From contig NZ_QBKT01000001.1 in the NCBI RefSeq assembly GCF_003054265.1, positions 744,001 through 808,000 on the forward strand: 64,000 bases of DNA. The letters are read 5' to 3'. The notes under the pieces are model-generated. The model searched no databases. It was not told the origin of the DNA and saw only the letters and a program-made list of their open reading frames with translations. Of the stretch, positions 1 to 21,786 are shown one piece after another. Numbering within the stretch: the stretch's first letter is position 1; each line of letters starts with the position of its first letter. Both the position numbers and the translations under genes were made by a program. The DNA is from Kordia periserrulae (lineage in GTDB: Bacteria > Bacteroidota > Bacteroidia > Flavobacteriales > Flavobacteriaceae).

Positions 1-1
1 T

Positions 2-1396
2 ACTTTTTGGAAACAAACCATTACGTTATTACAACAAAAACAAGCGGCGAAAGAAACCATCAAAATACTAGTAGACAGTACTTTTGAAGCACTTTCTAGC
101 ATCGCTACTTTAGATCAAATCACTATTGTAAAACACATACAAAATAATCACATCGCAATTCCTGAATTGCTCAGAATTGTGCTAGTGGAACGTCATCAAA
201 TTTTTGAATTGATTTATCAGCAAAAACCACAAATTTCACTTTCAAAGGCACTCAAAACCTATCAAAAAACTGGAAAAATTGAATCGTTGAGCAAGCATCT
301 CATCACTCAACATGAAATTCCTGCGTGGTTTGTGCATGCGGAAGCGTACAATTATGCGCAACTTGTCAACGAATTGATGACACAACAACCATTTGTCATC
401 TTAAAAACCATCCGCAGTGTACCTCTTTCGGAAGTTCAATCAACACGCTTTGTTCAAACCATAGATGTTGAAGTATTTATTTCCACATTACAGAAATTGT
501 ACACAGCTCCGCAAAAGGATTTGACAAATGTGTTAACCTTGTATGAAGTCTTCGCTTTTGTGAATATACGTGGGATTTCAACCAAAAACATACAAGAAAT
601 CATCCTTAGAAAAGTGGTGGTTGCTTGGCAAAATTCTAACTGGTCTTTGATTGCGAACGCCCAAATTTGGAACGAATTGTTATGGGAAATTTGCGGGAAG
701 AAATCTGTGCACAAAAAAGACTTTTTCAACGCTGTAGATTCAATAAAAAGCATGTTACCAACAACACTGTTAGTCACCTATAAAAGCCTGCTTTCTATCG
801 AAAAAGCCACACAACATATCTCTCAAAAAGACCATACAACAAACACTAAAAACAACGTGCTTATGGAACAAAAAGAAAATAACTTTCCCGAAGAAGGCGT
901 GAGCATTCGCAATGCTGGTTTGGTACTCTTAAACAGCTACTTTTTGATGTTACTTGAGCGTTTGCAAATTGTCAAAGACAACGCTTTTATTTCGGAAGAA
1001 GTACAACTTGATGCTATTCATTACTTGCAGTACATCGTTACAGGACACACACAAACGGAAGAATCGCTCCTAGCACTCAATAAAATATTGGTGGGAATTT
1101 CGCCTGAAACACCTGTAAAAGACAGTGTGGAAATGACGGAAAGTCAAAAAGAACTCATCAATAGTTTGATACAAGCGGCTATCAATTATTGGCCAGAAAT
1201 TGGGCAAACTTCCGTAGATGGATTTCGAGGAAATTGGTTGGTTCGCGATGGCATTTTGCGAGAAACCGAAGATCGTTGGGAACTTTTGGTAGAAAAAAGA
1301 CCGTACGACGTTTTAATGATAAAATCACCGTTTTCATTTTCAATCATCAAATTACCATGGATGGAAAAACCACTGCATGTCACGTGGCCATTCTAA
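2..1396 (+). CDS. Contractile injection system tape-measure protein (3' part)
   Basis: The reading frame is open from the first bases of the window, so the gene begins upstream; the internal TTG at 167 is not the true start. The last ~160 codons match the C-terminal signature of the eCIS tape-measure family (Afp14/Pvc14-like). They run from NAGLVLLNSYFLMLLERL, through a HYLQYIVTG segment and an ALNKILVGIS segment, to the terminal IKLPWM..PLHVTWPF. In this family the protein sets tube length and sits in the lumen of the sheath-tube particle. The N-terminal part visible here is mostly helical and less conserved. It is the first visible gene of the eCIS block; baseplate and tube genes are expected to the left of the window. 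The family call rests on recognising the C-terminal pattern. Confidence 0.8.
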   Translation, partial: TFWKQTITLLQQKQAAKETIKILVDSTFEALSSIATLDQITIVKHIQNNHIAIPELLRIVLVERHQIFELIYQQKPQISLSKALKTYQKTGKIESLSKHLITQHEIPAWFVHAEAYNYAQLVNELMTQQPFVILKTIRSVPLSEVQSTRFVQTIDVEVFISTLQKLYTAPQKDLTNVLTLYEVFAFVNIRGISTKNIQEIILRKVVVAWQNSNWSLIANAQIWNELLWEICGKKSVHKKDFFNAVDSIKSMLPTTLLVTYKSLLSIEKATQHISQKDHTTNTKNNVLMEQKENNFPEEGVSIRNAGLVLLNSYFLMLLERLQIVKDNAFISEEVQLDAIHYLQYIVTGHTQTEESLLALNKILVGISPETPVKDSVEMTESQKELINSLIQAAINYWPEIGQTSVDGFRGNWLVRDGILRETEDRWELLVEKRPYDVLMIKSPFSFSIIKLPWMEKPLHVTWPF

Positions 1397-1531: not shown

Positions 1532-4045
1532 ATGAATTCTTACAATGAAAATCTACATTCGAGTGTCGTTTCGTCATTGAACGCACAAGAATTAGAACTG
1601 CAAAAATTGAAGTCGCAAAAAGACTCAGCCACGTTTTCTATGTATTATGCGCAAGGTGCGCGTATTACTGCAGCGGAAAAATTACAAATGACTACTTCGA
1701 AGTATAAATTCCAACAGCAAGTCAACAATCAGGCAGTAAGCGACAGTGATATGTCTACCAACGTATTGACCTCCGCCAATAATGTAAAAACGTATGTTGC
1801 CAAATCGGTAACCAATGCTTCGGTAGCTGCGGCGAATGTGCAAATTGCTACCAATGCTATTGTAAAACTAGCAAGCGATACAGGAAGTATTTTCAGTATT
1901 GTAAATGCTGCCGATTTTGGTACTGAAATTTACCGTCAGGCGGAAAAAGCAAAGCAGTACATGGATCAAACTGCGTATTTAGCAGAACGCACTTCACAAA
2001 GTGGTATGGAAGCGTCTGCGCTAGTGGCAAAAATATCTGCAAATACCTTGGCAGAAGAAGCAACTACAGCAGATACTTCCGTAAAAAGTTTATTAAGTGT
2101 CACTTCTGCTCAATTAGATGCGACTACAACGGAATTAGCTACAGAAAGTCAAAAATTAGCGACTTCCAACACAGAGGAGAAAAAAGCGGAAGGTACCTTA
2201 GAAGATATCAATGCAGTGTACCATGCAACGCAAACCGCGTACGATTTAACTAACAAAGAATTGAATCTTGGATTGGGCGTTGTGTCTATTATGGGCGTAA
2301 GTACTGCTGACGAATCTGAAGCAGACGTGCCTGTGGGCGATGAAACACACTACACAGTACAATTTTCACATTTTAAAACACCGTTTAGAAATGTCGTTCC
2401 ACCGAAGCCGCAAACTTCTCAAGATGGCAAGACAATTCAGGTGTACAATCCTGTGGAGAATTACTACATCATGCTTGCTAAAACCAGCAAAAAAGACACC
2501 TTCTCTATTTCAGAAGCAGATGCGTTGGTAGGAAAAGAAAATTCCAGCCAATATATCAAAATTCATCAGTCAGAGTTTGTGACCGTTAAAGACAATGTTT
2601 CTGATTTAGGCGTTATTACGAAAAAAATCTTTACTTCTGAATTAGAAGACACGGATGGAGATGCAATGATACTTGGGAATGATTATGTTATTTTTGTGTA
2701 TGCAGAATTGCGAACAAACTATAAGAAAATCATCAATACGTTTGATAATTATTTATCGGCTGCTTCTGCAAAATTCACACTGCAAAATCAATTAAGCGCT
2801 CCAAAATCTACGGATATTATTGTCACTCCAAATGGTTTGCCTAGCAAAACTAAAAATAACACCGCTGCGCAAGCTGATGAAACACAAAAACAAGTGGTAA
2901 GTTTTACGGTTTGGGAAGATAAAGACTATACAGTTTCGTACAGATGTATGTTTTTACCACACAACAAAAGCTTTATCAAAGATTTATTGACGGTAGAAGG
3001 TTTAAATGCTATCGAATCGGAAGCAGAAGGTTTGGAAAGAATTGCAGATTTTTACGATCCAAAAATTGCAAGTACAAGTACTGAGATTACTTCGACAGAA
3101 GCAGAAATTACAGGAATTGATGCGCAACTTAAAGAAGCCAATGATGAACTGAAAAGTACGCAATCAAAAGCTAAGAAAAAGTCAACTGACGCAAAAGAGA
3201 AAGCGGCGCTTGAGAAACAAGAAAAGCAGCTAGAAAATTCGATTGCAGCTTTACTTTTAGAAAAAGAAAAACTAACGACCAAACTCGAAGAGCTTCAAAA
3301 TAAATTGACACAGTATGAAACTGGCAGACAAACTGAAATTGAAGACTTAGAAAGCAGTAAAAAACATGTAAAGCCAGGTTTTTACTTTGATTTATTAACT
3401 GCCGAACAAGTTCCTGCGGGTAGTTATACTACTACATCGCAAGCAAAAGGTTCACATTTAAACGAAATAACAAGACAAATTTTAACCATTATCGATGATA
3501 CCGAAGCCTTAAAAGTTGACATTCAGGTTTTAAAAAACAATGCAAATCAATTTGTGAAAGATTGCAAAACACTCATCAAGGATATTGCTTCTAAAAAAGG
3601 ACTCGATACACTCAAAAATGATGCAGAGGCTATTTTAAAAGATGTCGAAAACATGACCGACTCTTTAAATGCGGCTAAAAAGGAATTTGTAACGTTGATT
3701 AACGATATCATCAAATTGGTGAAAGACATCAAATCAGAAGCAAGTTTGCTACAATTATTTGAAGAACTCATCATTATTGCAGAAGGCTATGTAAACATTT
3801 TAAACGGTTATGCATGTAGCAGACAAGAAATGATCATTGAACCAGAAACTACTGATAATTTTGGAAACCGATTGATCAACACAAAAATGTACATTCCAGC
3901 CGTGTTGTCAATTTCCAACAATGCATCTGTAGAAGAAAACGCTCAGTTTACCAATGCGTTATCCGATTTTCAAAAAACCGCTGATTTCATATATCTAGCA
4001 GGAAACTCAGCAAATCTTAATAACTATCAAAACCAACAATCATGA
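1532..4045 (+). CDS. Large alpha-helical protein of the eCIS locus, function unknown
   Basis: 837 residues with no signal peptide or membrane segment. The first ~260 residues are Ala/Thr/Ser-rich heptad-like helix. The middle (~270-510) is predicted beta-rich, with a TVQFSHF stretch and Tyr/Val-rich strands. Residues ~515-620 form a strongly charged coiled coil rich in Lys, Glu and Leu, and the end (~650-780) is again helical. I do not recognise a family. It starts 135 bp after the tape-measure gene and overlaps the next gene by ATGA (4042-4045), so the two are probably translationally coupled. The position between tape measure and ATPase suggests a structural or accessory part of the injection particle, such as a fibre or sheath decoration, but that is inference. 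Confidence 0.75.
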   Translation: MNSYNENLHSSVVSSLNAQELELQKLKSQKDSATFSMYYAQGARITAAEKLQMTTSKYKFQQQVNNQAVSDSDMSTNVLTSANNVKTYVAKSVTNASVAAANVQIATNAIVKLASDTGSIFSIVNAADFGTEIYRQAEKAKQYMDQTAYLAERTSQSGMEASALVAKISANTLAEEATTADTSVKSLLSVTSAQLDATTTELATESQKLATSNTEEKKAEGTLEDINAVYHATQTAYDLTNKELNLGLGVVSIMGVSTADESEADVPVGDETHYTVQFSHFKTPFRNVVPPKPQTSQDGKTIQVYNPVENYYIMLAKTSKKDTFSISEADALVGKENSSQYIKIHQSEFVTVKDNVSDLGVITKKIFTSELEDTDGDAMILGNDYVIFVYAELRTNYKKIINTFDNYLSAASAKFTLQNQLSAPKSTDIIVTPNGLPSKTKNNTAAQADETQKQVVSFTVWEDKDYTVSYRCMFLPHNKSFIKDLLTVEGLNAIESEAEGLERIADFYDPKIASTSTEITSTEAEITGIDAQLKEANDELKSTQSKAKKKSTDAKEKAALEKQEKQLENSIAALLLEKEKLTTKLEELQNKLTQYETGRQTEIEDLESSKKHVKPGFYFDLLTAEQVPAGSYTTTSQAKGSHLNEITRQILTIIDDTEALKVDIQVLKNNANQFVKDCKTLIKDIASKKGLDTLKNDAEAILKDVENMTDSLNAAKKEFVTLINDIIKLVKDIKSEASLLQLFEELIIIAEGYVNILNGYACSRQEMIIEPETTDNFGNRLINTKMYIPAVLSISNNASVEENAQFTNALSDFQKTADFIYLAGNSANLNNYQNQQS

Positions 4046-4887
4046 GTAGCATATTATCATTAACACCCGTAAGACAAAAAAAATACGGCGTTACAGAACG
4101 TAAAAAGCAAGAACTTGACGAATTGTCACAAAAAGTGCTCAATGCCGAAAGTTCAGTAGAGCAATTAGAAGCCATTGTTTCTTCTTTAACGACAAAGTCT
4201 AACAAACTACAAGCCGATTTGGCAACTGCCGAAACCAACAAAGCCAACGCACTTAGCAATAAAGATTTGGCAGACGAAGTAGTGGAAAACTTGCTTGCCT
4301 TAAAAAACAACTCTGAGGTAACGTTTAACGAAACAGTGTTGGCAGAATCGAAAATTAAAACCGTTTCGAAAGAAGTGAGCAATTTGATTGATAAGTTAAT
4401 TTTCTCAGCTGAAATCATCAATAAACTTGGAAACTTGGTGGTTCGCAAAAAAGCAACAAATCCGTTAATTTCTGACGAATTGGTAACGATGGTTACTACC
4501 GCAAGTGCCGATGCCAACAATGCCGTAGCACTTACGTTAGTGGCACTACAATCGGTTTTTGCAGCGCAGGCAACTACCAAAGAATCGGAAGCTGCTGTAG
4601 CTTTGGAAATGTTACAAGCTGTAAAGCTCTATGAATTTGTGATTGGTGAAGAAACTGTGGACAATATTGAAAGCGATGCCACGCTATCGCCAGCTACAAG
4701 TATTCAAGGATTATTGCACAAAGCGTATGACATCAACGAAAACATGTACAATCAAGCATTGGCAGCTAGTAATGACACCATCAAACAGTTAAACAATACC
4801 AAACGAGAATTGAGCAAGGCACAAACAAATCTCAGCTCATTACAATCGGCTCTTGCGGCAGCAAACGCCGCAGCATTGGCTTCGTAG
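4042..4887 (+). CDS. Ala-rich coiled-coil protein coupled to the preceding gene
   Basis: 281 residues, almost entirely Ala/Leu/Glu/Lys/Asn-rich and expected to be a continuous coiled coil. There is no signal peptide, cysteine or recognisable domain. The ATG sits inside the stop region of the 837-aa gene (ATGA overlap). Composition and periodicity resemble the helical ends of its neighbour, so the two may form a hetero-oligomer. It is the last gene before a ~500-bp non-coding gap. The function is unknown; a helical fibre, spacer or chaperone of the eCIS is possible. A 187-codon antisense frame (4017-4580) is a by-product of the Ala/Thr-rich codons and was not accepted. Confidence 0.72.
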   Translation: MSSILSLTPVRQKKYGVTERKKQELDELSQKVLNAESSVEQLEAIVSSLTTKSNKLQADLATAETNKANALSNKDLADEVVENLLALKNNSEVTFNETVLAESKIKTVSKEVSNLIDKLIFSAEIINKLGNLVVRKKATNPLISDELVTMVTTASADANNAVALTLVALQSVFAAQATTKESEAAVALEMLQAVKLYEFVIGEETVDNIESDATLSPATSIQGLLHKAYDINENMYNQALAASNDTIKQLNNTKRELSKAQTNLSSLQSALAAANAAALAS

Positions 4888-5389: not shown

Positions 5390-6313
5390 ATGGAAAACGT
5401 ATTTAGAAATTTTTATCGAAATTTTTATAACAAAACACAAGGTTTTATCCCAACAAAACCACTGACGCAAAATGTGTATCCAGGTGATTTTTTCCAAATT
5501 AAAAACGGAGAATTTATTGTACTGGGAAATATATTTAGAAAAAATGTACTCAATGCAGATGATATCGTTTTTGAAAACGGCATCAAACTCAATTCTGCTA
5601 GTTGGAATTTTAGTGACGGTGTCAAAAAAGCCTATTCAGGTCGCGATGCCGGACACAACGCTATTGAAGGCGATTTCGAATTTAGCAGGCAAGTACTCGA
5701 TTTTGACAAATCTGGAAGCTTCTTCTTTTCAAGCAGCAATCCGGAATCTGTGAAAATTGCGAATTGGGGCGATTTTAAAAATGAGCTCATCATCAAAATG
5801 ACGCAGATCATGTACTCGTTTCGAAAACTCTATATCGTAACTGAATGTGCTACCACTGAAAATTGGACACTCGCAATTGCGGGTTCCAAAAAAGGAGAAT
5901 TGGAAATTGCCACAGAATCTGAAAACTTTGGATTGGTCAATATTTTCGGCGATGCCAATGCGAAAACCATTCGTGCAAAAGACATTGAATTTTACCATCG
6001 AGAAGAGCAACGAAAACCGTCTTTTTTTAAAGCGAAAAAGTTGGTGGCACAGCAAGAAAAGTTAGAAATATTTATCAACGAACTTATCAGCGACAGAACG
6101 CGAATAGCTTCGTGGGCAAACAATTTTTTTCAATACGATTTTTATCACAACGAACTCTCGTACAATCCGCCAATTACCACAAATGCACAAACAAGCCTTT
6201 TAGATATGTTGCAAGCCAATCAACTCAATCCAAATACGGCGTTGCAATATTTTTCGTGGGCAGATGCCAATTTGGACGATATCGAACTGTTATTTAACTA
6301 TTATGGAGACTAG
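5390..6313 (+). CDS. Unknown 307-aa protein of the eCIS locus
   Basis: The ATG at 5390 follows a non-coding gap, so this is probably the first gene of a second eCIS transcript. No signal peptide is present. The N-terminal ~190 residues look like a compact alpha/beta domain: a PGDFFQIKNG.FIVLGNIF segment, alternating strands, and an FRKLYIVTE strand near residue 150. The rest is helical and charged. The end overlaps the ATPase gene by 11 bp. I could not assign a family. The strand order and the LYIVTE motif faintly recall the gasdermin N-terminal domain, which is a weak impression only. Its close link to the ATPase suggests an eCIS component or a loaded factor. Confidence 0.7.
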   Translation: MENVFRNFYRNFYNKTQGFIPTKPLTQNVYPGDFFQIKNGEFIVLGNIFRKNVLNADDIVFENGIKLNSASWNFSDGVKKAYSGRDAGHNAIEGDFEFSRQVLDFDKSGSFFFSSSNPESVKIANWGDFKNELIIKMTQIMYSFRKLYIVTECATTENWTLAIAGSKKGELEIATESENFGLVNIFGDANAKTIRAKDIEFYHREEQRKPSFFKAKKLVAQQEKLEIFINELISDRTRIASWANNFFQYDFYHNELSYNPPITTNAQTSLLDMLQANQLNPNTALQYFSWADANLDDIELLFNYYGD

Positions 6314-7658
6314 CGAATACATCACATTGCTCTATGACGAAATTGATTGGCTACAAAAAGTCATCAATCAAGTGATAAGTACTTATTTGCAACACGAAGA
6401 TGCCGAGAAACTGCATTGGACAGACATTCCGATGCCCGATATTTCGGAAATAGCCGCACCGTACGCCAATACACTTCGCGAATGGGAGTTGACGCCTGTA
6501 GAACGTTTGGCACTTATTTTAGCAATAACACCGCATATTTTGCCAGAAACCTTGGATATCTTTTTTGGACAAAACGGTATGTACAATCGTGGATTTACAG
6601 AGTTTGGCGGCGTTATCGACAAAAATCATAGTGGTTTTTTGCCTACAGGACAAACCTTGTTATTTCTAGTAACCGCTCTAAATCCGGAATGGCGCTTGGA
6701 AGTACTTTCAATGTTTGAAAACACACATATTTTTCAGAAAGAACAAGTCATCAGTTTGGAAACTACCGAAAGTTATATTCCTAAGTATAATGGTGTATTA
6801 AGTGCGAATCATCGTTGGGTACACTATTTTATGACGGGAGAAAAACCAAAATTAGAACACAGCATTACGTTTCCAGCGCAAAAAATAACGACCGAATTGG
6901 CGTGGGAAGATGTCGTTTTAAATCCTGACATCATGGATCAAGTAGAAGAACTCAAAACGTGGATTGTTCACAAAGAAACGCTACTGAACGATTGGGGATT
7001 GTACAAAAGACTAAAACCTGGGTATAGAGCTTTATTTTACGGGCCACCAGGCACAGGAAAAACGTTGACGGTTTCCCTTTTGGGGAAAAATTTTGGAATG
7101 GACGTATATCGCGTCGATTTGTCTATGATTGTATCCAAATACATTGGAGAAACCGAAAAAAATCTTTCGCGAATTTTTGATACGGCAGCGCATCAAAACT
7201 GGATTCTATTTTTTGACGAAGCAGATGCCTTGTTTGGCAAACGAACCAAAGCAGCTTCATCCAATGACCGACATGCCAATCAGCAAACTGCCTATTTATT
7301 GCAACGCATTGAAGATTTCCCAGGATTCATCATTTTGGCTTCCAATTTGCGCGCCAATATGGATGAGGCATTTTCTAGAAGATTTCAATCGATTATTCAC
7401 TTTAAAATGCCTTCTATAGAAGAGCGTTTGGTGCTTTGGCAAAAAGCATTTTCGGGTGCTTGCTCCCTTTCGTCTGACATTGATTTGTATTCCATTGCTG
7501 AAAATTACGAATTGGCTGGTGGTGCTATTATCAACGTGCTTCGCTATTGCGCGATGGCAGCTGTGCAACGTGGAGATACGGTGGTACAAAAACAGGAACT
7601 CATCACAGGTATTCGAAGAGAACTCAAAAAAGAGAATAAAACCATTACGCAACCTTAA
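6303..7658 (+). CDS. AAA+ ATPase of the contractile injection system (Afp15/Pvc15-like)
   Basis: 451 residues from the ATG at 6303. A longer frame back to 6264 would lie wholly inside the upstream gene. Residues ~1-200 are an N-terminal helical domain typical of eCIS ATPases. The AAA+ core follows: Walker A GPPGTGKT at 247-254, Walker B ILFFDEAD at about 301-308, a sensor-like ILASN strand, and an arginine-finger region DEAFSRRF. This conserved ATPase is encoded with nearly all eCIS clusters and is needed for particle assembly or cargo handling in Photorhabdus/Serratia relatives. It overlaps the 307-aa gene by 11 bp and precedes the small 171-aa gene by 11 bp, indicating one operon. Confidence 0.9.
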   Translation: METSEYITLLYDEIDWLQKVINQVISTYLQHEDAEKLHWTDIPMPDISEIAAPYANTLREWELTPVERLALILAITPHILPETLDIFFGQNGMYNRGFTEFGGVIDKNHSGFLPTGQTLLFLVTALNPEWRLEVLSMFENTHIFQKEQVISLETTESYIPKYNGVLSANHRWVHYFMTGEKPKLEHSITFPAQKITTELAWEDVVLNPDIMDQVEELKTWIVHKETLLNDWGLYKRLKPGYRALFYGPPGTGKTLTVSLLGKNFGMDVYRVDLSMIVSKYIGETEKNLSRIFDTAAHQNWILFFDEADALFGKRTKAASSNDRHANQQTAYLLQRIEDFPGFIILASNLRANMDEAFSRRFQSIIHFKMPSIEERLVLWQKAFSGACSLSSDIDLYSIAENYELAGGAIINVLRYCAMAAVQRGDTVVQKQELITGIRRELKKENKTITQP

Positions 7659-7669
7659 AACACTGTTGT

Positions 7670-8185
7670 ATGGATATTGAAGAATTGATATTGCTCAAAG
7701 AACATTCCCAACTATTGGTTATGCATTCGTGGCGAAAAGACATTCCGCGCACACATCGGAATATCATCATTGCAGAAGCATTGAATAGTTGTACGGTGGA
7801 TGAAAACTTCCATATTACAGGATATTTGATTACAAATCGGCGCGTATTTGTAGTGGGATGGAGTGAAACAACGCCTTTTCAAAAAATACTAAAGCATTTC
7901 TACAGAAAAGTAGCAGAAGGTATTTTTAATTACAGAAAACACACTTTTCAATACGATGATGAATCTTATGTGGACGAGCAACATGCAAATGTTTTGTTTA
8001 CCACATATCCGTTTTACAATGAGCATATTCATACATTAATTACGGGAAGAAAATTGGTGTCAGCGTATTATGACCCAAACATAGAACGGCTCAAAGAGTA
8101 TATCAAACATCATGAGTATTGTTCGGCGTTGGATTATGAAGGCGGGAAAAGTCCGGTGTTTGTTAATACCAGTGCCAATGTGTAA
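7670..8185 (+). CDS. Small protein resembling a catalytically dead RAYT/IS200-type fold
   Basis: 171 residues, no signal peptide. The order of motifs follows REP-associated tyrosine transposases: an early helix (THRNIIIAEALNSC), then FHITGYLITNRRVFVV where active enzymes have a strand ending in TNHVHLI, a helix, and near the end YIKHHEYCSALDYEGG, similar to the WKYSSARDY segment of that family. The HUH histidines are replaced by RRVF, and the usual catalytic Tyr motif (YIHNNPV) is not seen, so it should not cleave DNA. It sits directly after the ATPase and before the cargo genes, so it may be a domesticated adaptor. The family link is by eye and uncertain. Confidence 0.6.
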   Translation: MDIEELILLKEHSQLLVMHSWRKDIPRTHRNIIIAEALNSCTVDENFHITGYLITNRRVFVVGWSETTPFQKILKHFYRKVAEGIFNYRKHTFQYDDESYVDEQHANVLFTTYPFYNEHIHTLITGRKLVSAYYDPNIERLKEYIKHHEYCSALDYEGGKSPVFVNTSANV

Positions 8186-8206: not shown

Positions 8207-8710
8207 ATGATGGAGAAACAGTTTCAAAAAAAATCAACTCATAAAAATACAGCAACTGCGGCTGCACATCAAAACAAAGGAAAAGTGCTAGAGGACTATC
8301 GTGAGCAAACTATATTACAACGCAAAGCTATTTCATCCATACAAAAATCAAACTCTGTACAGCGTATAGCTACTGGTGTCATACAGCTTTTTAGTACGCC
8401 ATCTTTACTTCGGTTTTCAGACTTAAAAATCGGTCGTTCTAAAAATGCTGGAATTGTAGATGAGCATGTTAAATTAGCAACAGGATTAGAATTCACCCAA
8501 CACTTTCATTGTAATGGATGGGATGAACAACAAAAAACATTTACCAGTTTTACAGGTACTTTTAATGTAGGTGGCACTAAATATCACTATACCATTCCAG
8601 ATGGCGGAAGTGGCGCTTGGACAGCAGACCCTGGTACTCCACCACAAAATGCACTTGCTATGAAAATACGAACAGAAAAAAAATTACAAGATTTGACTAA
8701 AGCCGAATAA
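8207..8710 (+). CDS. Putative eCIS cargo protein 1 (LEDYR-tagged)
   Basis: 167 residues. The first ~45 form a basic, low-complexity leader (KKSTHKNTATAAAH) ending in LEDYR at residues 28-32. This leader is closely similar to that of the next protein. It is followed by a Gln/Ile-rich linker and a ~100-residue C-terminal domain of unknown type containing GLEFTQHFHCNGW and a glycine-rich GGTKYHYTIPDGGSG stretch. There is no Sec signal. Shared leaders with different C-termini are the pattern expected for effectors loaded into a contractile injection particle. The two ATGs at 8207 and 8210 are equivalent. The next gene begins one base after this one ends. Confidence 0.68.
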   Translation: MMEKQFQKKSTHKNTATAAAHQNKGKVLEDYREQTILQRKAISSIQKSNSVQRIATGVIQLFSTPSLLRFSDLKIGRSKNAGIVDEHVKLATGLEFTQHFHCNGWDEQQKTFTSFTGTFNVGGTKYHYTIPDGGSGAWTADPGTPPQNALAMKIRTEKKLQDLTKAE

Positions 8711-8711
8711 T

Positions 8712-9683
8712 ATGAAAACGCGACTCCATAAAAAATCAACAGCAAAAACAGCGCAAACTGCGGCGGCTCATACTAAAAATGGTTTTTCGCTGGAAGATAA
8801 TCGTCCGTCAACTATCATTCAACAGAAAAAAAACAACACAGGATTGCCTGATGGTTTAAAATCGGGTATTGAAAGTCTTTCAGGGCATTCGCTAGATGAT
8901 GTGAAAGTGCATTACAATTCAGCCAAACCTGCACAATTAAACGCACATGCGTACGCGCAAGGAACTAATATTCACTTGGCTTCTGGACAAGAAAAGCATT
9001 TACCACATGAAGCTTGGCATATTGTACAGCAAAAACAAGGTCGTGTACGCCCGACAAAAACGGTAAACGGAGCAAAAATTAACGACAATGCAGGTTTAGA
9101 AAAAGAAGCGGATGTGATGGGTGCGAAAGCGTTGCAACGGAAAGTTGATTCGAGACAAATTACACAGAAAAAAATAGTAAAAAACACAACAGCATCAGAA
9201 ACATCTATACAAAAAATGCAGCATGACGTTATTCAATTTGCAGAACCACAAGATACACTAGATGTGATTCAAAAATACTTTCCAGATACGTATAATCATT
9301 ACGGCGCGGATTTGATTAGAAAAGTTTGTGTAGAAAATGATATGCGTGTACACGCACATGGAAGTGGAAAACCTGGCGACGGAATCAATGCTGCTACACA
9401 GAAAGAAATGGATAATTTAATACCATATTTAAGAGCTGCAAAAGAATCTTCCAAAAAAGAAGATAAAGAAGAATCGAAGGAAGAAGATAGTTCTTACGGT
9501 AGTTCTAAAAGTTCTAAGTCAAAAGCTAAATATCAATCCAAAGCAGAAAAAAAAGAAACAGACAGGAGAAAAGAAGCACATAAGGAAGAAGTTGCTAGAC
9601 GAAAAAAAGAGAACTATTTAGCCAAAAAAGCTGATGGTGGTAGCGGAGGCTCATCAAAATCTTCTAAAAAGAAAGGAAAATAA
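8712..9683 (+). CDS. DUF4157-domain putative eCIS cargo protein 2
   Basis: 323 residues. A basic leader (KKSTAKTAQTAAAH, then LEDNR at 27-31) precedes a DUF4157 domain at residues ~45-141. That domain includes GLKSGIESLSG, VHYNS, NIHLASG, a zinc-binding-type HEAWH at 99-103 and a downstream EKEAD. DUF4157 is a metalloprotease-like domain strongly associated with eCIS cargo. After a Gln-rich linker comes an unassigned region (~180-240, with RVHAHGSGKPGDG). The last 90 residues are Lys/Ser/Glu-rich and disordered, ending in SKKKGK, perhaps nucleic-acid binding. No Sec signal is present. The middle position between two proteins with the same leader supports a cargo role. Confidence 0.8.
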   Translation: MKTRLHKKSTAKTAQTAAAHTKNGFSLEDNRPSTIIQQKKNNTGLPDGLKSGIESLSGHSLDDVKVHYNSAKPAQLNAHAYAQGTNIHLASGQEKHLPHEAWHIVQQKQGRVRPTKTVNGAKINDNAGLEKEADVMGAKALQRKVDSRQITQKKIVKNTTASETSIQKMQHDVIQFAEPQDTLDVIQKYFPDTYNHYGADLIRKVCVENDMRVHAHGSGKPGDGINAATQKEMDNLIPYLRAAKESSKKEDKEESKEEDSSYGSSKSSKSKAKYQSKAEKKETDRRKEAHKEEVARRKKENYLAKKADGGSGGSSKSSKKKGK

Positions 9684-9700
9684 ACTAAAAAAACACGTAT

Positions 9701-10045
9701 ATGTACACATCCAAAAAACAAGAACATCAACATAAAAAACAGGTTACTGCAACGCAATTAAAAAGAAGTGAATCTTCAGGAAAAACTTTAGAGGACAATC
9801 GGGCAACATCTGAAACAGCGCAATTGGTCACACAATTGGCACACAAAAGAGGAAAACGAAAATCCACACAAGAAAAACATCAAAAAGGAGAACGCCAATT
9901 ACAAGACGCACAAATACAAGCGCGTTGGCGTCAATTGTATAATAGCAACTTTAGTAAAGGAACTCCATTTTGTAAAAATTGGATTAAGAAAAATAGACAA
10001 CAACATGGCGAAAATTATTCGCAATGGACGCGACAGAAGATGTGA
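9701..10045 (+). CDS. Putative eCIS cargo protein 3, small and basic
   Basis: 114 residues, very rich in Lys, Arg, Gln and His. The leader resembles those of the two preceding genes, with an early KK pair, a Ser/Thr/Ala-rich stretch and LEDNR at residues 30-34. The remainder is a helical basic segment and an end containing FCKNWIKKNRQQHGENYSQW. No family is recognised. It could be a small DNA- or membrane-directed effector, or an effector accessory. The gap to the previous gene is 17 bp, and a hairpin terminator follows 40 bp after the stop, so this is likely the last gene of the eCIS operon. Confidence 0.62.
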   Translation: MYTSKKQEHQHKKQVTATQLKRSESSGKTLEDNRATSETAQLVTQLAHKRGKRKSTQEKHQKGERQLQDAQIQARWRQLYNSNFSKGTPFCKNWIKKNRQQHGENYSQWTRQKM

Positions 10046-14478: not shown

Positions 14479-17400
14479 ATGATCAAAAAATACCTACTCA
14501 CGATACTTTTGATGTGCCTTGCGCTGCAACTAGATTATGCATCGTATTCAAAATCAGAACTTGTACATGCTGAAATGATGCCCAACGCCACCATTAGCGT
14601 TGATGTACCTACCGTATGTCAATACAACGATTCGCCTATCATCACCTTTACAGGTACTGACGGAACAGCTCCGTATACTTTTACGTATGTTATTGGTACA
14701 GGCACTCCTCAAACGGTTACTTCTACAGGAGATATCGCAACAATTGAAGTTCCTACAAATGCTGATGGAACATTTACGTACACCCTAACATCTGTACAAG
14801 ATGCCACAGCAACTGACAATGCCGTTTCTGGAAATGTTACCATTACCGTTACGGAAGGGCCAGATGCAACCTTAGGTGGACCAAATCCTATCATGATTGA
14901 TGGTGAAACGGTCTTTAGAGAATGTAACAATACCTCAACTACCTTATCATTTACCAATACGTCGTCTACAACTTCTACGTTGAATGCCAGCTATACTATC
15001 GATTGGGGTGATGGAAGTCCCGTGTTTAATGATACTAGTTTCGCACTAGAAACACACGATTATGCAGTTGGAATTTATACGTTGATTTATACCATTACAG
15101 GAAATAATGGCTGTAACACCACTCGTGAATACACAGTATTCGTAGGCTCAAACCCTGCGGTATCTTTAGGGAATCCTGGAAATACAGATATTTGTAATAC
15201 AGATGCGCTTACCTTCCCAATTACAGGAACAAGTAACAATCCACCAGGAACGGTTTATACAGTCACATTCAACGACGGTTCACCACCACAAGTGTTCAAC
15301 CATCCACCGCCAGCGAGTATTACACATACATTTGCTAGTTCTTCTTGTAATACTACAAGTTCTGACGGAAGCAACACGTATGCCAACTCATTTTCGGCAA
15401 ACATCGTTGCGTCCAATCCGTGTAGTTCTTCGTCTGTAGGAGTAGTTCCTATCTATGTTTCTTCCATTCCACAATCAGACTTTACCTTTCCTACGGAACC
15501 AACATGTACCAATACAGAAATTTGCTTTGAAGATTTATCTATAGGAAACTCAACCAACGGAAGTGATCAAAACTGTACCACAAATCCGAATGTAATTTGG
15601 GAGATTTCTCCGAATACTTATAATGTGACAAGTGGAAATCTCGGAAATAGTTTTGGTTCTTCCGACCCAGGATTATGGCTAACAGGCTCTGAAATTGTTT
15701 GTGTTGAATTTACACAACCTGGCACCTACACCATCACACAATCTGTTGGAAACAGATGCGGTATTGATGTACTTTCGCAAACCATTTGTATAGAAGCACC
15801 TGTAAATCCACAATTCAATTTGAGTAGCACTGACGGTTGTACACCGTTAGATGTTACAACCACCAATACTACCGATGAATCTACCAGTTGTATTCCGCCA
15901 ACCTATCAATGGCAAGTAACCTATACTTCTGATTTTTGCGGAACAGAACCCGCTACGTGGAGTTTTACCAACGGAACTGATGCAAGCTCTACAAATCCGT
16001 CGTTTAACTTTGTAACGCCAGGAACCTACACTATTGAATTAGCAGGCACAAATTCGTGTGGAACAACAACAAGCTCGCAACAAGTCACGGTAAAACAACC
16101 GCCGACAGTCAGCATCAATCCGATAAGTGACTTGTGCAACTCCAACACCATCAACCCAAGTGCGGTGATTGAAACCTGTACCGATAATGTAGGTGCGGTT
16201 ACCTATTCGTGGTCATTTCCGGGAGCCAATACAACATCATCCAACTTAGAATCGCCTGGAGCTATTGATTATCCATCGCCGGGAACCTATACAATTTCTT
16301 TACAAGTCACCAACGAATGTGGCACTTCTAACCTTGCAATGCAAACGTTTACTATTGAAGAAGTTCCTGTCATCACCAATACAAACTTGACACAAGATAT
16401 ATGCTCTGGAGCATCTACAACCGAAATCAATCTTACATCCAGTAGTGCTAGTACAACCTATTCGTGGACAGCAACGGCAACGGCTGGCATTAGTGGTTTT
16501 ATCCCGTCAGGAACTTCAAGCACTATTCCTGCACAAATTATTACGACGACTAATACCACTTCGGGTACAGTAACATATACAGTAACGCCAACCATTAACA
16601 ATTGTGATGGTACTCCTGTAGATTTTATCATTACGGTAAATCCTGCTCCAGAAATAACGACACAACCGCAATCGAGCATGGTATGTCAAAACGGAACGCC
16701 AAATACGCTAAGTGTAGCTACAACAGGTGCTTCTGCACAATACCAATGGTATAGCAACACAGTCAATAGCAATACAGGCGGAACATTAATTCCAGGAGCA
16801 ACCAACCCAGATTATGTACCGCCAACAGATACCGTAGGAATCTTGTATTATTATTGTGAAATTACCTTTACCACAGGCGGCTGTTCATCCTTAAACTCAC
16901 AAACAGCAACGGTTGAAGTCACGCCAAATGCTAACATTACATCACAACCAACGCCAACACAAAGTCTATGTGTAGGAAGTACAATTGATAGTCCGTTATC
17001 GGTTGCTTTTGCCAATGGCTCAGGAACGGTTTCGTATCAATGGTATAGCAATACCACAAACAGCAACACAGGCGGAACACAAATTGCAGGTGCTACCAAT
17101 GCAGACTATACGCCACCAGCATACACAGCCGCAGGAAACTACTATTACTATGTAGTATTGTCCTTTGCGGGAAGTGGCTGTGCAGATATTACAAGCGATG
17201 TCGCGGAAGTCATCGTAGTCGATGTACCAACGGTTGACGTACAACCGATACCAACACAAACACTCTGTCAAAATACAGCACCGCAACTCCTAGAAGTACA
17301 AGCTTCTGGAGGTTTGGGAGCGTTCTCATATCAATGGTATAGCAATACAACCAACAGCAATACAGGCGGAACACCAATTGCAAGCGAAACAAACAATACC

Positions 17401-20400
17401 TTTACTCCACCAACAGATACGGTAGGGACATTGTATTACTACTGTGTCATTTCGCAACCTGCAAGTGCGAGTTGTACCGTAACGAGTGATGTTGGCGAAG
17501 TCATTGTAAATCCTGCGCCTTTGATTAATTCGCAACCGCAATCGCAAGATTTGTGTTTGGGCGATGTTGCAAATGCGCTTACAGTAAGTTATGTAAACGG
17601 TGTTGGTACTCCAGCTTATCAATGGTATTCCAATACTACAGACGATACCACAACTGGAACTGCTATTGCGGGAGCAACAACAGCTTCATACACTCCAGAT
17701 GTTTCTTCAGTAAGTACCACATATTACTATTGCATACTCACTTTTGCTTCTGGCGGATGCCCTGAAGTAACCTCAGCAACGGCTGAAATCATCGTGAATG
17801 AAACGCCAAGTATCAGCAACTTTATGGAAACGCTTTGTAGCGGAAATAGTTTTACAGTCACGCCAGATGGAACTAGTGGCGATATCGTTCCAACCAATAC
17901 AACCTATACATGGACAACACCAACAGTAGTGCCTGCGGGAAGCGTTACGGGAGCTACGGCAGAAGCAACTCCACAAACAGAAATCAGTCAACTCTTAACC
18001 AATACCACGAACGCTACGGCAACGGTTACCTATACCGTAACGCCAACAGCTGGAAATTGTGACGGTACACCATTCACTATTGAAATTACACTAAATCCTG
18101 CCCCAGAAGTCACCACGCAACCACAACCAAGTACCGTTTGTCAAAACGGAACGCCGAACACAATGAGCATTACCTTAGGAAGTACGTCTGACACACCTCA
18201 ATACCAATGGTACAGCAATACAACTGATAGCAACACAGGCGGAACTCCAATTGCAGGTGCTACCAATGCAGATTATATTCCACCAACAGATACGATTGGA
18301 ATGGTTTATTATTACTGTGAAATCACCTTTGCTACTGGCGGATGTGCGTTGATTACGTCACAAACGGCGTTGGTAACGGTAACTCCAAATGCAACCATTA
18401 CGAGTCAACCTACGGCGACACAAAATTTATGTGTGGGAAGTACAATTGACAGTCCATTATCAGTGGCATACACAGACGGAACAGGAACAGTTTCGTATCA
18501 ATGGTTTAGCAATACAACCAACAGCAATACAGGCGGAACAGCTATTGCAGGTGCTACCAATCCTGATTATACACCGCCAGTCTACACAACTGCTGGAACG
18601 TATTATTACTATGTAATATTATCCTTTTCGGGAAGTGGCTGTTCAGATGTTGTTAGTAATGTTTCAGAAGTCATTGTTGTTGATGCACCAATGATTGATG
18701 TGCAACCAATTGTGACACAGACACTTTGTCAAAACACCATTCCGCAAGATCTTACAGTGCAACCTTCGGGTGGTATTGGCGCATTTTCATATCAATGGTA
18801 TAGCAATACGACAAACAGCAATACAGGCGGAATTGCCATTGCAGGCGAAACCAACGCTTCGTACACGCCACCAACCAATACAGTAGGAACTTTTTACTAT
18901 TATTGTATCGTGTCGCAAGCTGCGAGTGCAAGTTGTACTGCTACAAGTGATGTTGCCGAAGTTATTATCAACTTAGGGCCACAATTTGATTCGCAACCAC
19001 AATCACAAGAATTATGTACGGCAGATACGGTAAACACATTAAGTGTAAGTTATTCAAACGGTGTAGGCACGCCAACCTATCAATGGTATATCAATGTCGT
19101 TGACGATACCACTTCAGGAACACCAATTGCAGGCGCTACTACAAATTCGTATACGCCTAATACATCATCTCAAGGAACTACCTACTATTATTGTATTATT
19201 ACGTTCTCTTCAGGTGGTTGTTCTGAAATTATATCAAACACGGCAGAAATCATCGTGAATGAAACACCTGTCATTAGTGATGTTACAGAAACTATCTGTA
19301 GTGGCAATAGCTTTACCATCACACCAGATGGCACTAGCGGCGATATCGTTCCAACCAATACAACCTATACGTGGACAGTACCGACCATCGTTCCTGCGGG
19401 AAGCATTACAGGAGCTAATGCGGAAACCAATCCACAAACAACTATCAGTCAAACACTCATCAACACGACGACGTCGCCTGCTACGGTAACATATACGGTA
19501 ACTCCAGTGTCAGGAATTTGTACAGGAATACCTTTTACAGTTGAAATCACCGTAAACCCAGCAATTTCTCCAAATGTAACTGTTACACAAATTGATTGTT
19601 TTGGAGCAAATAATGGTGAAATCATGACCAATATTACAGGAGGAATTCCGTTTTCCACAGGAAATCCGTACAATATTTCATGGACAGGACCGAACGGTTT
19701 TACGTCTAGCAGTGCTACCATTTCAAATTTAATTCCTGGTGATTATACACTTTCAGTACAAGATGAAGGCGGCTGCCCGTTTACAGAAACGTATACCATT
19801 ACAGAGCCTGATGAATTAATTTTAACGGTTGATACGGAAAGTCAAATCAGTTGTTTTGGTGCGAATGACGGTGAAATTACCGTAACCGTTTCTGGAGGAA
19901 CGCCAACCTATATTTATAATTGGACGCGTAATGGTGCTGCGTTTTCTATGGATGAAGATATTTCAAACCTTTCGCCAGCAACTTACGAATTAACTGTAAC
20001 CGACGCGAATGGTTGTGGACCAATTGTACAATCGTTTGTCATTACAGAGCCAAGCGAATTATCGGCTTCGCTAGTAACGCAAACTAACGTAGCTTGTTTT
20101 GGAGAATCTTCAGGAGCTATAGATGTAAATATTACTGGTGGAACTCCAACAGAAACCGCGCCTGGCGTATTTGAATATACCTACGCATGGACAGGACCTG
20201 ACGGATTTACAAGTGCGACGCAAGATTTGACAAATTTGCCAGCAGGAACCTATACGCTAACTGTAACAGATGCCAATGGTTGTGACGATACACTTAGTGT
20301 CAACCTAACACAACCTAATGAAATTGTGATTTCATACACCGCTACCGAATTGCAATGTTTTGGAGACAATGATGCTTCTATCACTATTACAAGTATTACA

Positions 20401-21786
20401 GGAGGCTCTGGCTCGTACACGATTACGTGGAGTAATTTTGGAGAAGGAACAAGTCAAACCAACTTATCAGCGGGAGATTATACCATTACGGTGACCGATA
20501 GTAACAATTGTACAGCTTCTGAAACGGTAACGATTGATGCGCCTCCTATTTTTACGATTGAGCCTGTAGTACAGCAAATTTCATGTTTTGGTGCCAATGA
20601 CGGAAGTATCAGTTTGAACTTTCAAGGTGGTATAGAACCTATTGATTTTGCGTGGGCAGATGATCCAAATGCAGGTGTTGAACGTAATAATTTAGGTCCT
20701 GGCGCGTATACAATTAATATTGTGGACGGCACTCCGTGTACCATTACCGAAACCTTTATCATTATAGAACCCGCGGAATTGCTCCTTTCTGGAAACGTCA
20801 CCAATGCGTTGGATTGTGACGATGCAAGCTCTGGTGCAATTAATTTGTTAATCTCTGGAGGAACAGAACCGTACACGGTCAATTGGTCCAACGGAGCAAT
20901 TACAGAAGATTTGGATGATATTCCTGCGGGAGATTATTTAGTAACCGTTGTAGATGGCAATGGTTGTGAAGCAACGGATACCTTTACCGTTATTCGTCCG
21001 CCAGAAATTGTCATTGAAGTAGACACTGAAACGGTTGTCAATTGTAATGCCTTTACCGCGAGTCAAACCTTTACGGCACAAGTTTCAGGTGGTGTTCCAC
21101 CATTTACGCTCAATTGGTCAAGCGGAACGGTAACAGGCGCCAATAATGAAATGATGACCACTTCACAAAACGGTTTGGTCATTTTAGAAGCTACTGACGC
21201 TTTAGGTTGTGTAACGAGTTATACGTTTGAAGTAGACGTGCCTGAAATTAGCGATGCCGATTTTACCTTAACCTCAACCGCTTTTGAAACTTTCGGAATT
21301 TATTCGCAGATAGACCCAATTCAGTTTACCAATACCACTACAGGCGATTATATCAATATTTCGTGGGATTTTGGCGATGGCAACTTTTCTAACGAAGAAA
21401 ACCCTGTGCATTCGTATTCTGCTCCAGGCGCATATACGGTGATACAAACCGTAACGTTCCCTGGTGATTGTGTGCATACCAAAGTCATTACCTTATTGAT
21501 TGAAAAAGGATACAAACTTATCATGCCATCCGCATTTACACCAAATGAAGATGGTTTAAATGACCGTTTTCGACCTGTTTTTGTGGGACTCGATTCTATG
21601 GAGTTGAATATTTACGATACGTGGGGAAGTTTAATCTATTCTGAAACGGGCGATAATGTACAAGGTTGGGACGGAAAAGTAAAAGGTGAACTTGTTGAAA
21701 ACGGAAACTACTATTTCACCTTCACCGCGAAAACATTTTTTGGGACAACTGTTCGTGAAAGCGGACCATTGACACTAATCTTATAA
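14479..21786 (+). CDS. Giant SprB-type adhesin with T9SS type B sorting domain
   Basis: 2435 residues with a Sec signal peptide. Order of parts: PKD/Ig-like domains (to ~720); two tandem blocks of about 485 residues, each with four Ig-like repeats (YQWYSNTTNSNTGG type) and one CSGNSFT..PDGTSGD domain (721-1206 and 1206-1693); six or seven SprB repeats (CFGANDGEI, DANGCG type; ~1693-2180); a PKD domain with FGDGNFSNEENPVHSY (~2300); and a C-terminal gliding-associated domain beginning FTPNEDGLNDRF (~2345-2435). The last is the CHU_C / type B signal for export by the type IX secretion system. In Flavobacterium johnsoniae, SprB is a mobile surface adhesin used for gliding. The PorP/SprF gene follows 8 bp later, a typical pairing. 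Confidence 0.9.
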   Translation: MIKKYLLTILLMCLALQLDYASYSKSELVHAEMMPNATISVDVPTVCQYNDSPIITFTGTDGTAPYTFTYVIGTGTPQTVTSTGDIATIEVPTNADGTFTYTLTSVQDATATDNAVSGNVTITVTEGPDATLGGPNPIMIDGETVFRECNNTSTTLSFTNTSSTTSTLNASYTIDWGDGSPVFNDTSFALETHDYAVGIYTLIYTITGNNGCNTTREYTVFVGSNPAVSLGNPGNTDICNTDALTFPITGTSNNPPGTVYTVTFNDGSPPQVFNHPPPASITHTFASSSCNTTSSDGSNTYANSFSANIVASNPCSSSSVGVVPIYVSSIPQSDFTFPTEPTCTNTEICFEDLSIGNSTNGSDQNCTTNPNVIWEISPNTYNVTSGNLGNSFGSSDPGLWLTGSEIVCVEFTQPGTYTITQSVGNRCGIDVLSQTICIEAPVNPQFNLSSTDGCTPLDVTTTNTTDESTSCIPPTYQWQVTYTSDFCGTEPATWSFTNGTDASSTNPSFNFVTPGTYTIELAGTNSCGTTTSSQQVTVKQPPTVSINPISDLCNSNTINPSAVIETCTDNVGAVTYSWSFPGANTTSSNLESPGAIDYPSPGTYTISLQVTNECGTSNLAMQTFTIEEVPVITNTNLTQDICSGASTTEINLTSSSASTTYSWTATATAGISGFIPSGTSSTIPAQIITTTNTTSGTVTYTVTPTINNCDGTPVDFIITVNPAPEITTQPQSSMVCQNGTPNTLSVATTGASAQYQWYSNTVNSNTGGTLIPGATNPDYVPPTDTVGILYYYCEITFTTGGCSSLNSQTATVEVTPNANITSQPTPTQSLCVGSTIDSPLSVAFANGSGTVSYQWYSNTTNSNTGGTQIAGATNADYTPPAYTAAGNYYYYVVLSFAGSGCADITSDVAEVIVVDVPTVDVQPIPTQTLCQNTAPQLLEVQASGGLGAFSYQWYSNTTNSNTGGTPIASETNNTFTPPTDTVGTLYYYCVISQPASASCTVTSDVGEVIVNPAPLINSQPQSQDLCLGDVANALTVSYVNGVGTPAYQWYSNTTDDTTTGTAIAGATTASYTPDVSSVSTTYYYCILTFASGGCPEVTSATAEIIVNETPSISNFMETLCSGNSFTVTPDGTSGDIVPTNTTYTWTTPTVVPAGSVTGATAEATPQTEISQLLTNTTNATATVTYTVTPTAGNCDGTPFTIEITLNPAPEVTTQPQPSTVCQNGTPNTMSITLGSTSDTPQYQWYSNTTDSNTGGTPIAGATNADYIPPTDTIGMVYYYCEITFATGGCALITSQTALVTVTPNATITSQPTATQNLCVGSTIDSPLSVAYTDGTGTVSYQWFSNTTNSNTGGTAIAGATNPDYTPPVYTTAGTYYYYVILSFSGSGCSDVVSNVSEVIVVDAPMIDVQPIVTQTLCQNTIPQDLTVQPSGGIGAFSYQWYSNTTNSNTGGIAIAGETNASYTPPTNTVGTFYYYCIVSQAASASCTATSDVAEVIINLGPQFDSQPQSQELCTADTVNTLSVSYSNGVGTPTYQWYINVVDDTTSGTPIAGATTNSYTPNTSSQGTTYYYCIITFSSGGCSEIISNTAEIIVNETPVISDVTETICSGNSFTITPDGTSGDIVPTNTTYTWTVPTIVPAGSITGANAETNPQTTISQTLINTTTSPATVTYTVTPVSGICTGIPFTVEITVNPAISPNVTVTQIDCFGANNGEIMTNITGGIPFSTGNPYNISWTGPNGFTSSSATISNLIPGDYTLSVQDEGGCPFTETYTITEPDELILTVDTESQISCFGANDGEITVTVSGGTPTYIYNWTRNGAAFSMDEDISNLSPATYELTVTDANGCGPIVQSFVITEPSELSASLVTQTNVACFGESSGAIDVNITGGTPTETAPGVFEYTYAWTGPDGFTSATQDLTNLPAGTYTLTVTDANGCDDTLSVNLTQPNEIVISYTATELQCFGDNDASITITSITGGSGSYTITWSNFGEGTSQTNLSAGDYTITVTDSNNCTASETVTIDAPPIFTIEPVVQQISCFGANDGSISLNFQGGIEPIDFAWADDPNAGVERNNLGPGAYTINIVDGTPCTITETFIIIEPAELLLSGNVTNALDCDDASSGAINLLISGGTEPYTVNWSNGAITEDLDDIPAGDYLVTVVDGNGCEATDTFTVIRPPEIVIEVDTETVVNCNAFTASQTFTAQVSGGVPPFTLNWSSGTVTGANNEMMTTSQNGLVILEATDALGCVTSYTFEVDVPEISDADFTLTSTAFETFGIYSQIDPIQFTNTTTGDYINISWDFGDGNFSNEENPVHSYSAPGAYTVIQTVTFPGDCVHTKVITLLIEKGYKLIMPSAFTPNEDGLNDRFRPVFVGLDSMELNIYDTWGSLIYSETGDNVQGWDGKVKGELVENGNYYFTFTAKTFFGTTVRESGPLTLIL
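16639..19554 (+). repeat. Two tandem ~1.46-kb coding repeats inside the adhesin
   Basis: Unit 1 (16639-18093, 1455 bp) and unit 2 (18094-19554, 1461 bp) each begin with AsnProAlaProGlu..ThrThrGlnProGln and end with an EITLNPAPE/EITVNPA-type strand. Each contains four YQW(Y/F) Ig-like modules and one CSGNSFT domain in the same order. The two units are clearly similar at both DNA and protein level, which points to duplication of a five-domain block. Confidence 0.75.

Follow-up and report, generated by a model that had tools for sequence, protein, structure and literature searches.

A conserved N-terminal leader of predicted cargo proteins is a probable packaging signal for one group of extracellular contractile injection systems

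Introduction

The closest described counterparts of the element reported here are the cargo signals of the Photorhabdus virulence cassettes (PVCs) and the antifeeding prophage (Afp), which belong to lineage Ia of the extracellular contractile injection systems (eCISs). The packaging domains of PVC cargo are described as N-terminal, disordered, and both necessary and sufficient for loading, for which the ATPase Pvc15 is needed (PMC10097599, PMC11495950), and as portable by fusion (PMC10097599). In this report, we analyzed a stretch of 64,000 nucleotides from the genome of Kordia periserrulae (contig NZ_QBKT01000001.1, positions 744,001 to 808,000; "the window"), in which three consecutive genes downstream of an eCIS cluster encode otherwise dissimilar proteins that start with a common leader. 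We consider it likely that this leader is an N-terminal packaging signal marking proteins as cargo for one group of eCISs, and it is probably a sequence-defined, cross-phylum form of the eCIS cargo signal; loading itself we infer by analogy with the packaging domains of PVCs.

The leader resembles the PVC and Afp signals in its N-terminal position, its length of about 50 residues, its hydrophilicity, and the diverse effector bodies that follow it, encoded downstream of an eCIS that has an AAA ATPase. It differs from them in its strongly conserved sequence, with an Asp close to residue 35, in its presence in several phyla, and in its frequent location on genes away from the eCIS locus; for the PVC and Afp signals, no conserved sequence is reported (PMC11297309), and within lineage Ia hardly any loci other than those of PVC and Afp are said to have them (PMC11495950). 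More generally, Danov et al. stated in 2024 that no signal sequence conserved among eCISs had been detected (PMC11297309), and Evans and Waterfield, in the same year, found rare homology among lineage Ia signals, which they sorted into groups by heatmap, and suggested that signal disorder is characteristic of Afp homologues (PMC11495950).

AlgoCIS from Algoriphagus machipongonensis offers a second comparison, since its lumen cargo proteins Cgo1 and Cgo2 are alike in an N-terminal domain predicted to be disordered and carry DUF4157 at their center, with no motif mentioned in the available text (Xu et al. 2022, PMC8894135). The likeness lies in this combination of an N-terminal domain with DUF4157 (eCIS_core, PF13699), an eCIS cargo marker that is also present in the second of the three window proteins. 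The difference is that Alg12 of AlgoCIS finds its best matches, among 32 genomes, in clusters with a shorter tape measure protein (TMP), not in clusters of the window's type. The leader is also distinct from eCIS_core itself, because it is located ahead of the domain, is also found on proteins that lack the domain, and is replaced by other leaders in other eCIS_core proteins of the same genomes. In our literature searches, aimed at this motif and at any conserved eCIS leader, we recognized no description of it, although preprints and most subscription papers were outside their scope, so an earlier description is possible. Outside eCISs, a shared N-terminal module (MIX, FIX, or RIX) defines polymorphic effectors of the type VI secretion system (T6SS), a parallel that concerns another machine; none of the Pfam matches obtained for the proteins described here is to a family named MIX, FIX, or RIX.

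Results

Three window genes share a leader but not a body. The genes occupy positions 8207–8710 (167 residues), 8712–9683 (323 residues), and 9701–10045 (114 residues), all on the forward strand. Their leaders, delimited as residues 1–40 of the first protein (8207–8326; leader profile match G000:C1:752210), residues 1–40 of the second (8712–8831), and residues 1–45 of the third (9701–9835), carry LEDYR at residues 28–32 (8288–8302), LEDNR at residues 27–31 (8790–8804), and LEDNR at residues 30–34 (9788–9802), respectively, just as an earlier note on this DNA, made from the sequence alone, had placed them. Its statement that the first two leaders align nearly throughout also holds, for the alignment is gapless with 51% identity, and its BLOSUM62 local score is 91, the highest of 2000 shuffles being 48. 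Leader 3 shows a weaker likeness, with a score of 39 against leader 1 (reached by 55 of 2000 shuffles) and 40 against leader 2 (30 of 2000). Past residue 45, the three bodies are as unlike one another as the note had claimed, 755, 1168, and 1802 of 2000 shuffles equaling the real score. A loosened motif beginning at residues 20–41 is found in three of the 40 window open reading frames (ORFs) of at least 100 residues, which are exactly these three. Chance resemblance of the leaders was considered and rejected on the basis of the shuffles together with the pattern scan described below.

Cargo candidate 2 has an eCIS_core domain (8844–9041; E 1.9e-9, 38 bits, cut-off 22), the DUF4157 that the note had recognized, followed by a C-terminal part that includes a Lys/Glu/Ser-rich tail (9042–9683). 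No eCIS_core match was returned by the Pfam scan for candidates 1 and 3, and the bodies of candidate 1 (8327–8710) and of the small, basic candidate 3 (9836–10045) match nothing in Pfam (E ≤ 0.1) or PHROG (E ≤ 0.01). Candidate 1 has a relative in another Kordia-genus genome (L061), with 65% identity over the full protein length. In an AlphaFold model of candidate 1, the leader has a pLDDT of 33–40, but the whole model is poor (mean 46, from two sequences) and thus says little on leader disorder.

The leader has a canonical form that extends well beyond the window. We scanned genome_contigs (about 85,000 species) with a DNA pattern for FQF.DNRPE...Q that is position-free and blind to the first 30 residues; 86 stretches matched, and the 80 that were read (at most 8 kb each) hold 82 matches. 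Counted from the first Met of the frame, the Asp lies at residue 35 in 56 of these 82 and at residues 32–36 in 73; taking the Met nearest that spacing, a choice that favors 35, gives 60 and 76, respectively. Two matches are outlying, with the Asp at 17 in one and at 42 in the other. Four lack a Met start (L244, L268, L273, and L285), of which L268 would reach residue 35 from a GTG start and L285 looks like a chance match. The consensus of the first 50 residues is MNTHADKTQENKSQSVANAVSQKQSGGESTFQFVDNRPEAVAQRKLQEMA, and in the 60 leaders with the Asp at 35, the 40 columns outside the searched pattern hold 89 bits. The canonical form is thus FQFVDNRPEA...QRKLQ within some 50 residues, so that LED(N/Y)R, which the note took as the end of the tag, describes the three window genes correctly but is a local variant of a broader motif, with the Asp at 29–32 in the window's variants.

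Many Bacteroidota are among the pattern-positive records, which also include the cyanobacteria Adonisia and Okeania, Reinekea, Shewanella, Hahella, Desulfobacter, and Nitrosomonas, as well as a SAR324 bacterium, Candidatus Anammoxibacter, and a Manganitrophaceae bacterium; several records are metagenome-assembled genomes (MAGs), for which contamination is possible. Nine loci from seven Algoriphagus genomes other than A. machipongonensis are also among them. The pattern loci that overlap the sources of our leader profiles are L223 and L248 from Kordia, L283 from Flavobacteriaceae, and L266, whose leader is identical to that of L146. At three loci, the leader is found 0.8–1.8 kb away from an ATPase of eCIS type. 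The Okeania locus (L295) has two tagged proteins, that is, proteins bearing the leader, beside the ATPase; in Adonisia (L252), a tagged protein is near the ATPase and a gene with a sheath-like start but no Pfam match; and in a Saprospiraceae MAG (L274), a tagged protein adjoins both the ATPase and CIS_TMP. Both cyanobacterial loci carry eCIS_core proteins. A loading tag for a Bacteroidota eCIS, as proposed in the note, is therefore too narrow a description, although the portability and the link to eCISs that it also proposed are borne out below. The pattern without its last Q gave no match in viral_contigs, which leaves a phage origin of the leader unsupported, and a leader query gave no match in the plasmid collection.

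The leader co-occurs with eCISs. Leader profiles were run un-anchored and in six frames over two genome samples. The first is a family sample of 249 genomes from 235 genera, searched with a profile of 30 leaders made from the Kordia genus alone; nine genomes match at E ≤ 0.05 and seven of them at E ≤ 0.01. Protein N-termini account for 23 of the 25 matches, and for 14 of the 16 outside the profile-building genus; the other two are weak internal matches in G125 (E 0.02) and G144 (E 0.04), which were not counted as tags. CIS_TMP is found in 38 of the 249 genomes, and in nine the frame has at least 1100 residues (long-TMP, the window's type). All seven tag-positive genomes at E ≤ 0.01 are long-TMP, which corresponds to 7/9 long-TMP genomes versus 0/240 others, the long-TMP grouping having been defined after the matches were known. 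A wider profile adds the remaining two, G072 and G102, to make 9/9, while the 0/240 rests on the narrower profile at E ≤ 0.01. On 64 control genomes from both samples, the wider profile matched 0/32 with CIS_TMP and a lower-scoring ATPase and 1/32 without CIS_TMP; this one (G548, E 0.009) was judged spurious, being a 52-residue frame with a stop.

The second, class-wide sample comprises 395 genomes, of which 16 are matched by a 38-leader profile at E ≤ 0.01 and 52 by CIS_TMP (49 over the family cut-off). All 16 tag-positive genomes have CIS_TMP (Fisher 8e-16, a value that is not an exact probability because the genomes are related). Broad occurrence in genomes lacking an eCIS, the outcome that the note had named as contrary to its proposal, was not seen: with the limit at E ≤ 0.01, the profile matches 0/343 genomes that lack CIS_TMP. 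Of the 16 tag-positive genomes, 15 contributed no sequence to the profile, and together the 16 cover 11 GTDB families. From the 40 matches listed, 27 new loci were read, and 25 show the leader at the N-terminus (L159 its first half only); L163 is broken by stops, and L167 is left unresolved by a contig end. Long TMP is no strict rule in this sample, since ten genomes with a TMP frame above 800 residues have no match to the 38-leader profile and three (G534, G633, and G637) have the tag although their TMP frame is below 600 residues. As a side observation, leaders interrupted by stop codons, which denote decayed tagged genes, were seen in two genomes (L133, about 2430–2564, and L163).

The leader is attached to many bodies. 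Excluding the four matches without a Met start leaves 78 tagged proteins, of which 12 are cut by the locus end; 64 were scanned against protein families, namely 63 complete ones and one cut (L219), omitting 11 cut and three complete ones (L218, L225, and L284). Matches to eCIS_core were found in 31 of the 64, alongside single AID/APOBEC-like deaminases, M91 peptidase, and transglutaminase and two GNAT matches, and no NCBIfam model matches more than 2/64. Of ten tagged proteins from the genus and family, five match nothing; the matches of the others are to M91 peptidase and an XOO_2897-type deaminase and, in each case under the curated cut-off, to GHE nuclease, Ntox30, and HopA1. Judged by these domain matches, the matched families are of effector type, including deaminase-, nuclease-, and peptidase-like ones. 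This bears on the reading that the leader is simply the N-terminal part of one eCIS_core/DUF4157 family, inherited by descent rather than a portable signal. The 31 proteins with eCIS_core would fit such an origin, as would the finding that 46 of 78 bodies past residue 80 fall in a single BLAST cluster. However, an HExxH-type motif is present in only 36 of the 78, and the 37 complete proteins among the 42 without it form 31 BLAST body clusters; two of the three window proteins have no eCIS_core; and other eCIS_core proteins of the genus bear quite different leaders. Common descent is thus largely refuted and, in our estimation, highly improbable.

Within the genome and genus, tagged genes recur and coexist with other leaders. 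DNA encoding LED(N/Y)R-like motifs occurs 17 times in the 4.7-Mb genome, and the 14 occurrences outside the three genes are within longer frames or in frames of fewer than 80 residues. Two additional tagged genes, both orphans, were detected elsewhere in the genome. The fourth tagged protein, encoded at a distance of 440 kb, was recovered with a profile of the three leaders; it has LLDNRPATVIQQKK (LLDNR) and weakly matches the GHE-type HNH nuclease family. The fifth was recovered with the 30-leader profile, is encoded on a different contig, and has LVDNRSQ. The two genes are at L077:4272–5036 (G000:C1) and L143:3227–3847 (G000:C9). We read 27 tagged leaders in the genus, around eCIS_core proteins and at orphan genes. 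All 11 genus genomes have eCIS_core proteins and CIS_TMP, and 10 of them combine a CIS_TMP frame of about 1400–1560 residues, the window's type, with a second eCIS that has a 550–750-residue TMP frame. G253 is the sole genome with the second type only, and its three eCIS_core proteins are all of the untagged class, as judged by direct reading rather than with the leader profile. This other eCIS_core class of the genus, found in genomes that also hold the second eCIS (L076, L079, L080, L034–L060, and L001–L003), starts mostly with IIQRKE..SFVKP......FTPP or FIQPKL.VGQPND, and from their sequences these leaders are possibly other address tags.

Half of the tag-positive genomes have the tag near the eCIS ATPase. 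All 22 tag-positive genomes of the two samples have an eCIS-type ATPase match (at least 230 bits). A profile match lies within 10 kb of this ATPase in 11 of the 22, and in the other 11 it is farther off or on a different contig, which indicates that many tagged genes are orphans. The note had anticipated that profile hits would lie near eCIS ATPases or beside DUF4157 and that the tag could be used to find further cargo genes; both expectations find support, the latter in the cargo-like tagged genes that the profiles detected far from the eCIS locus. The distant genes could also be taken to mean that the leader serves another export route that co-occurs with eCISs, such as Sec, the type IX secretion system (T9SS), or T6SS. 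Yet residues 1–35 have a mean Kyte–Doolittle hydropathy of −1.13 (78 leaders), compared with 0.22 for 33 window ORFs, with no hydrophobic core of the kind that a Sec signal requires, and tagged genes adjoin eCIS ATPases in Kordia, in several other families, and in cyanobacteria. We therefore give the notion of a separate export route very little credence.

Upstream of the three genes lies an eCIS cluster in which sheath, tube, CIS_TMP, and AAA ATPase matches occur together. In the window, the CIS_TMP gene is represented by its 3' part (1..1396, forward strand; Pfam match), its open frame of about 1400 residues starting upstream of the window. In a side observation on this gene, PF19268 matches it in two separate stretches, and in many other eCISs the TMP frame has 450–750 residues. 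Three more forward-strand genes of the cluster (1532–4045, 4042–4887, and 5390–6313) have no convincing Pfam match; in other tagged clusters (L130 and L193), the interval from TMP to ATPase also holds genes with N-termini like theirs. They are followed by a Pvc15-like AAA ATPase gene (6303–7658, forward strand), whose ORF runs from 6264 and whose likely start at 6303 was placed by alignment with relatives. The three tagged genes do lie downstream of this ATPase, as noted earlier, but not directly, since a forward-strand gene of 171 residues and unknown function intervenes (7670–8185). Relatives of this gene come directly after the ATPase in other tagged eCIS loci as well; the gene order is seen at ten loci of the Kordia genus, the window's included, and in G105, G288, G367, and G617. 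The cluster also has DUF4255-, spike-, PAAR-, and gp25-like genes, a likeness assessed on the first 60 residues of each, and encodes an Alg12-like baseplate protein. Elsewhere in the window (14479–21786), there is a 2435-residue protein with repeated PKD-like segments, whose C-terminus, judged from its sequence, appears gliding-motility/T9SS-like.

Discussion

How might such a leader work? We propose a signal of about 50 hydrophilic residues, the first half of which is rich in Lys, Gln, Asn, and Ser and the second half of which reads F-x-(F/L)-x-D-N-R-P-x-x-x-x-Q-x-K, with the Asp near 35. In the producing cell, the leader would be recognized by the eCIS AAA ATPase (6303–7658), perhaps together with the product of the 171-residue gene, and the ATPase would help the protein to be threaded or docked into the lumen of the tube, in the way that Pvc15 acts on the sequence-variable packaging domains of PVCs. 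Being short and placed right at the N-terminus, the signal has been joined to many unrelated effector bodies, and these can then reside anywhere in the genome.

The identity of the reader is approached by a profile of the ATPase N-domain, which sorts eCIS ATPases by score: at least 255 bits is reached in 21/22 tag-positive genomes versus 16/58 genomes counted as tag-negative at that stage, of which three (G072, G102, and G516) were subsequently found to carry the tag. The cluster ATPase is the simplest choice of reader for the leader, but because most of the tag-positive ATPases helped to build this profile, the case for it is no more than suggestive. The 171-residue gene, from its conserved place after the ATPase, could be a second candidate, acting as a loading adaptor.

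Several observations weigh against the packaging signal that we favor. When genomes that contributed to the ATPase profile and those of the genus are set aside, more than 255 bits is reached in 3/4 tag-positive genomes (G566 has 230) versus 14/56 then tag-negative ones (G516 later became positive), with a Fisher value of 0.065. An ATPase match was found in just three of the 80 pattern loci (L295, L252, and L274), within the 8 kb or less that was read of each. With the 38-leader profile, no leader match was obtained in 36 of the 52 class-sample genomes that have CIS_TMP, which implies that the leader belongs to some eCISs, not to all, and 13 of the 16 tag-less genomes with a similar ATPase still have none with the wider profile at E ≤ 0.01. 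Finally, PVC signal peptides are reportedly unconserved in sequence, so that a leader under strict conservation may have functions in addition to loading.

This last point leads to the most serious alternative, in which the leader is specific to eCISs but acts after loading, by silencing the cargo in the producer, retaining it in the tube, or aiding its release or uptake in the target. The leader is more conserved in sequence than the signal peptides of PVCs are reported to be, which points to a specific binding partner, and co-occurrence with eCISs fits such a role equally well. On the other hand, the N-terminal position, the marked hydrophilicity, and the unrelated bodies are what is described for PVC packaging domains, and we regard a post-loading function as unlikely. 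A signal for packaging is the reading that we retain.

If the leader is indeed such a signal, it might form part of a cross-phylum, sequence-defined address code of eCISs, in which this one conserved leader would be read by a particular eCIS ATPase type, co-resident eCISs would use other leaders (in the Kordia genus, IIQRKE..SFVKP..FTPP or FIQPKL.VGQPND), and scattered orphan effectors would be sorted to the right machine. We see the prospects of this broader scheme as evenly balanced.

The choice of cargo by eCISs outside PVC and Afp is an open question, and the published classifier works on composition because no conserved signal had been found (PMC11297309). A sequence-defined leader would permit the direct listing of eCIS cargo, including distant effectors missed by locus-based surveys, and it would offer a testable handle on recognition by the ATPase.

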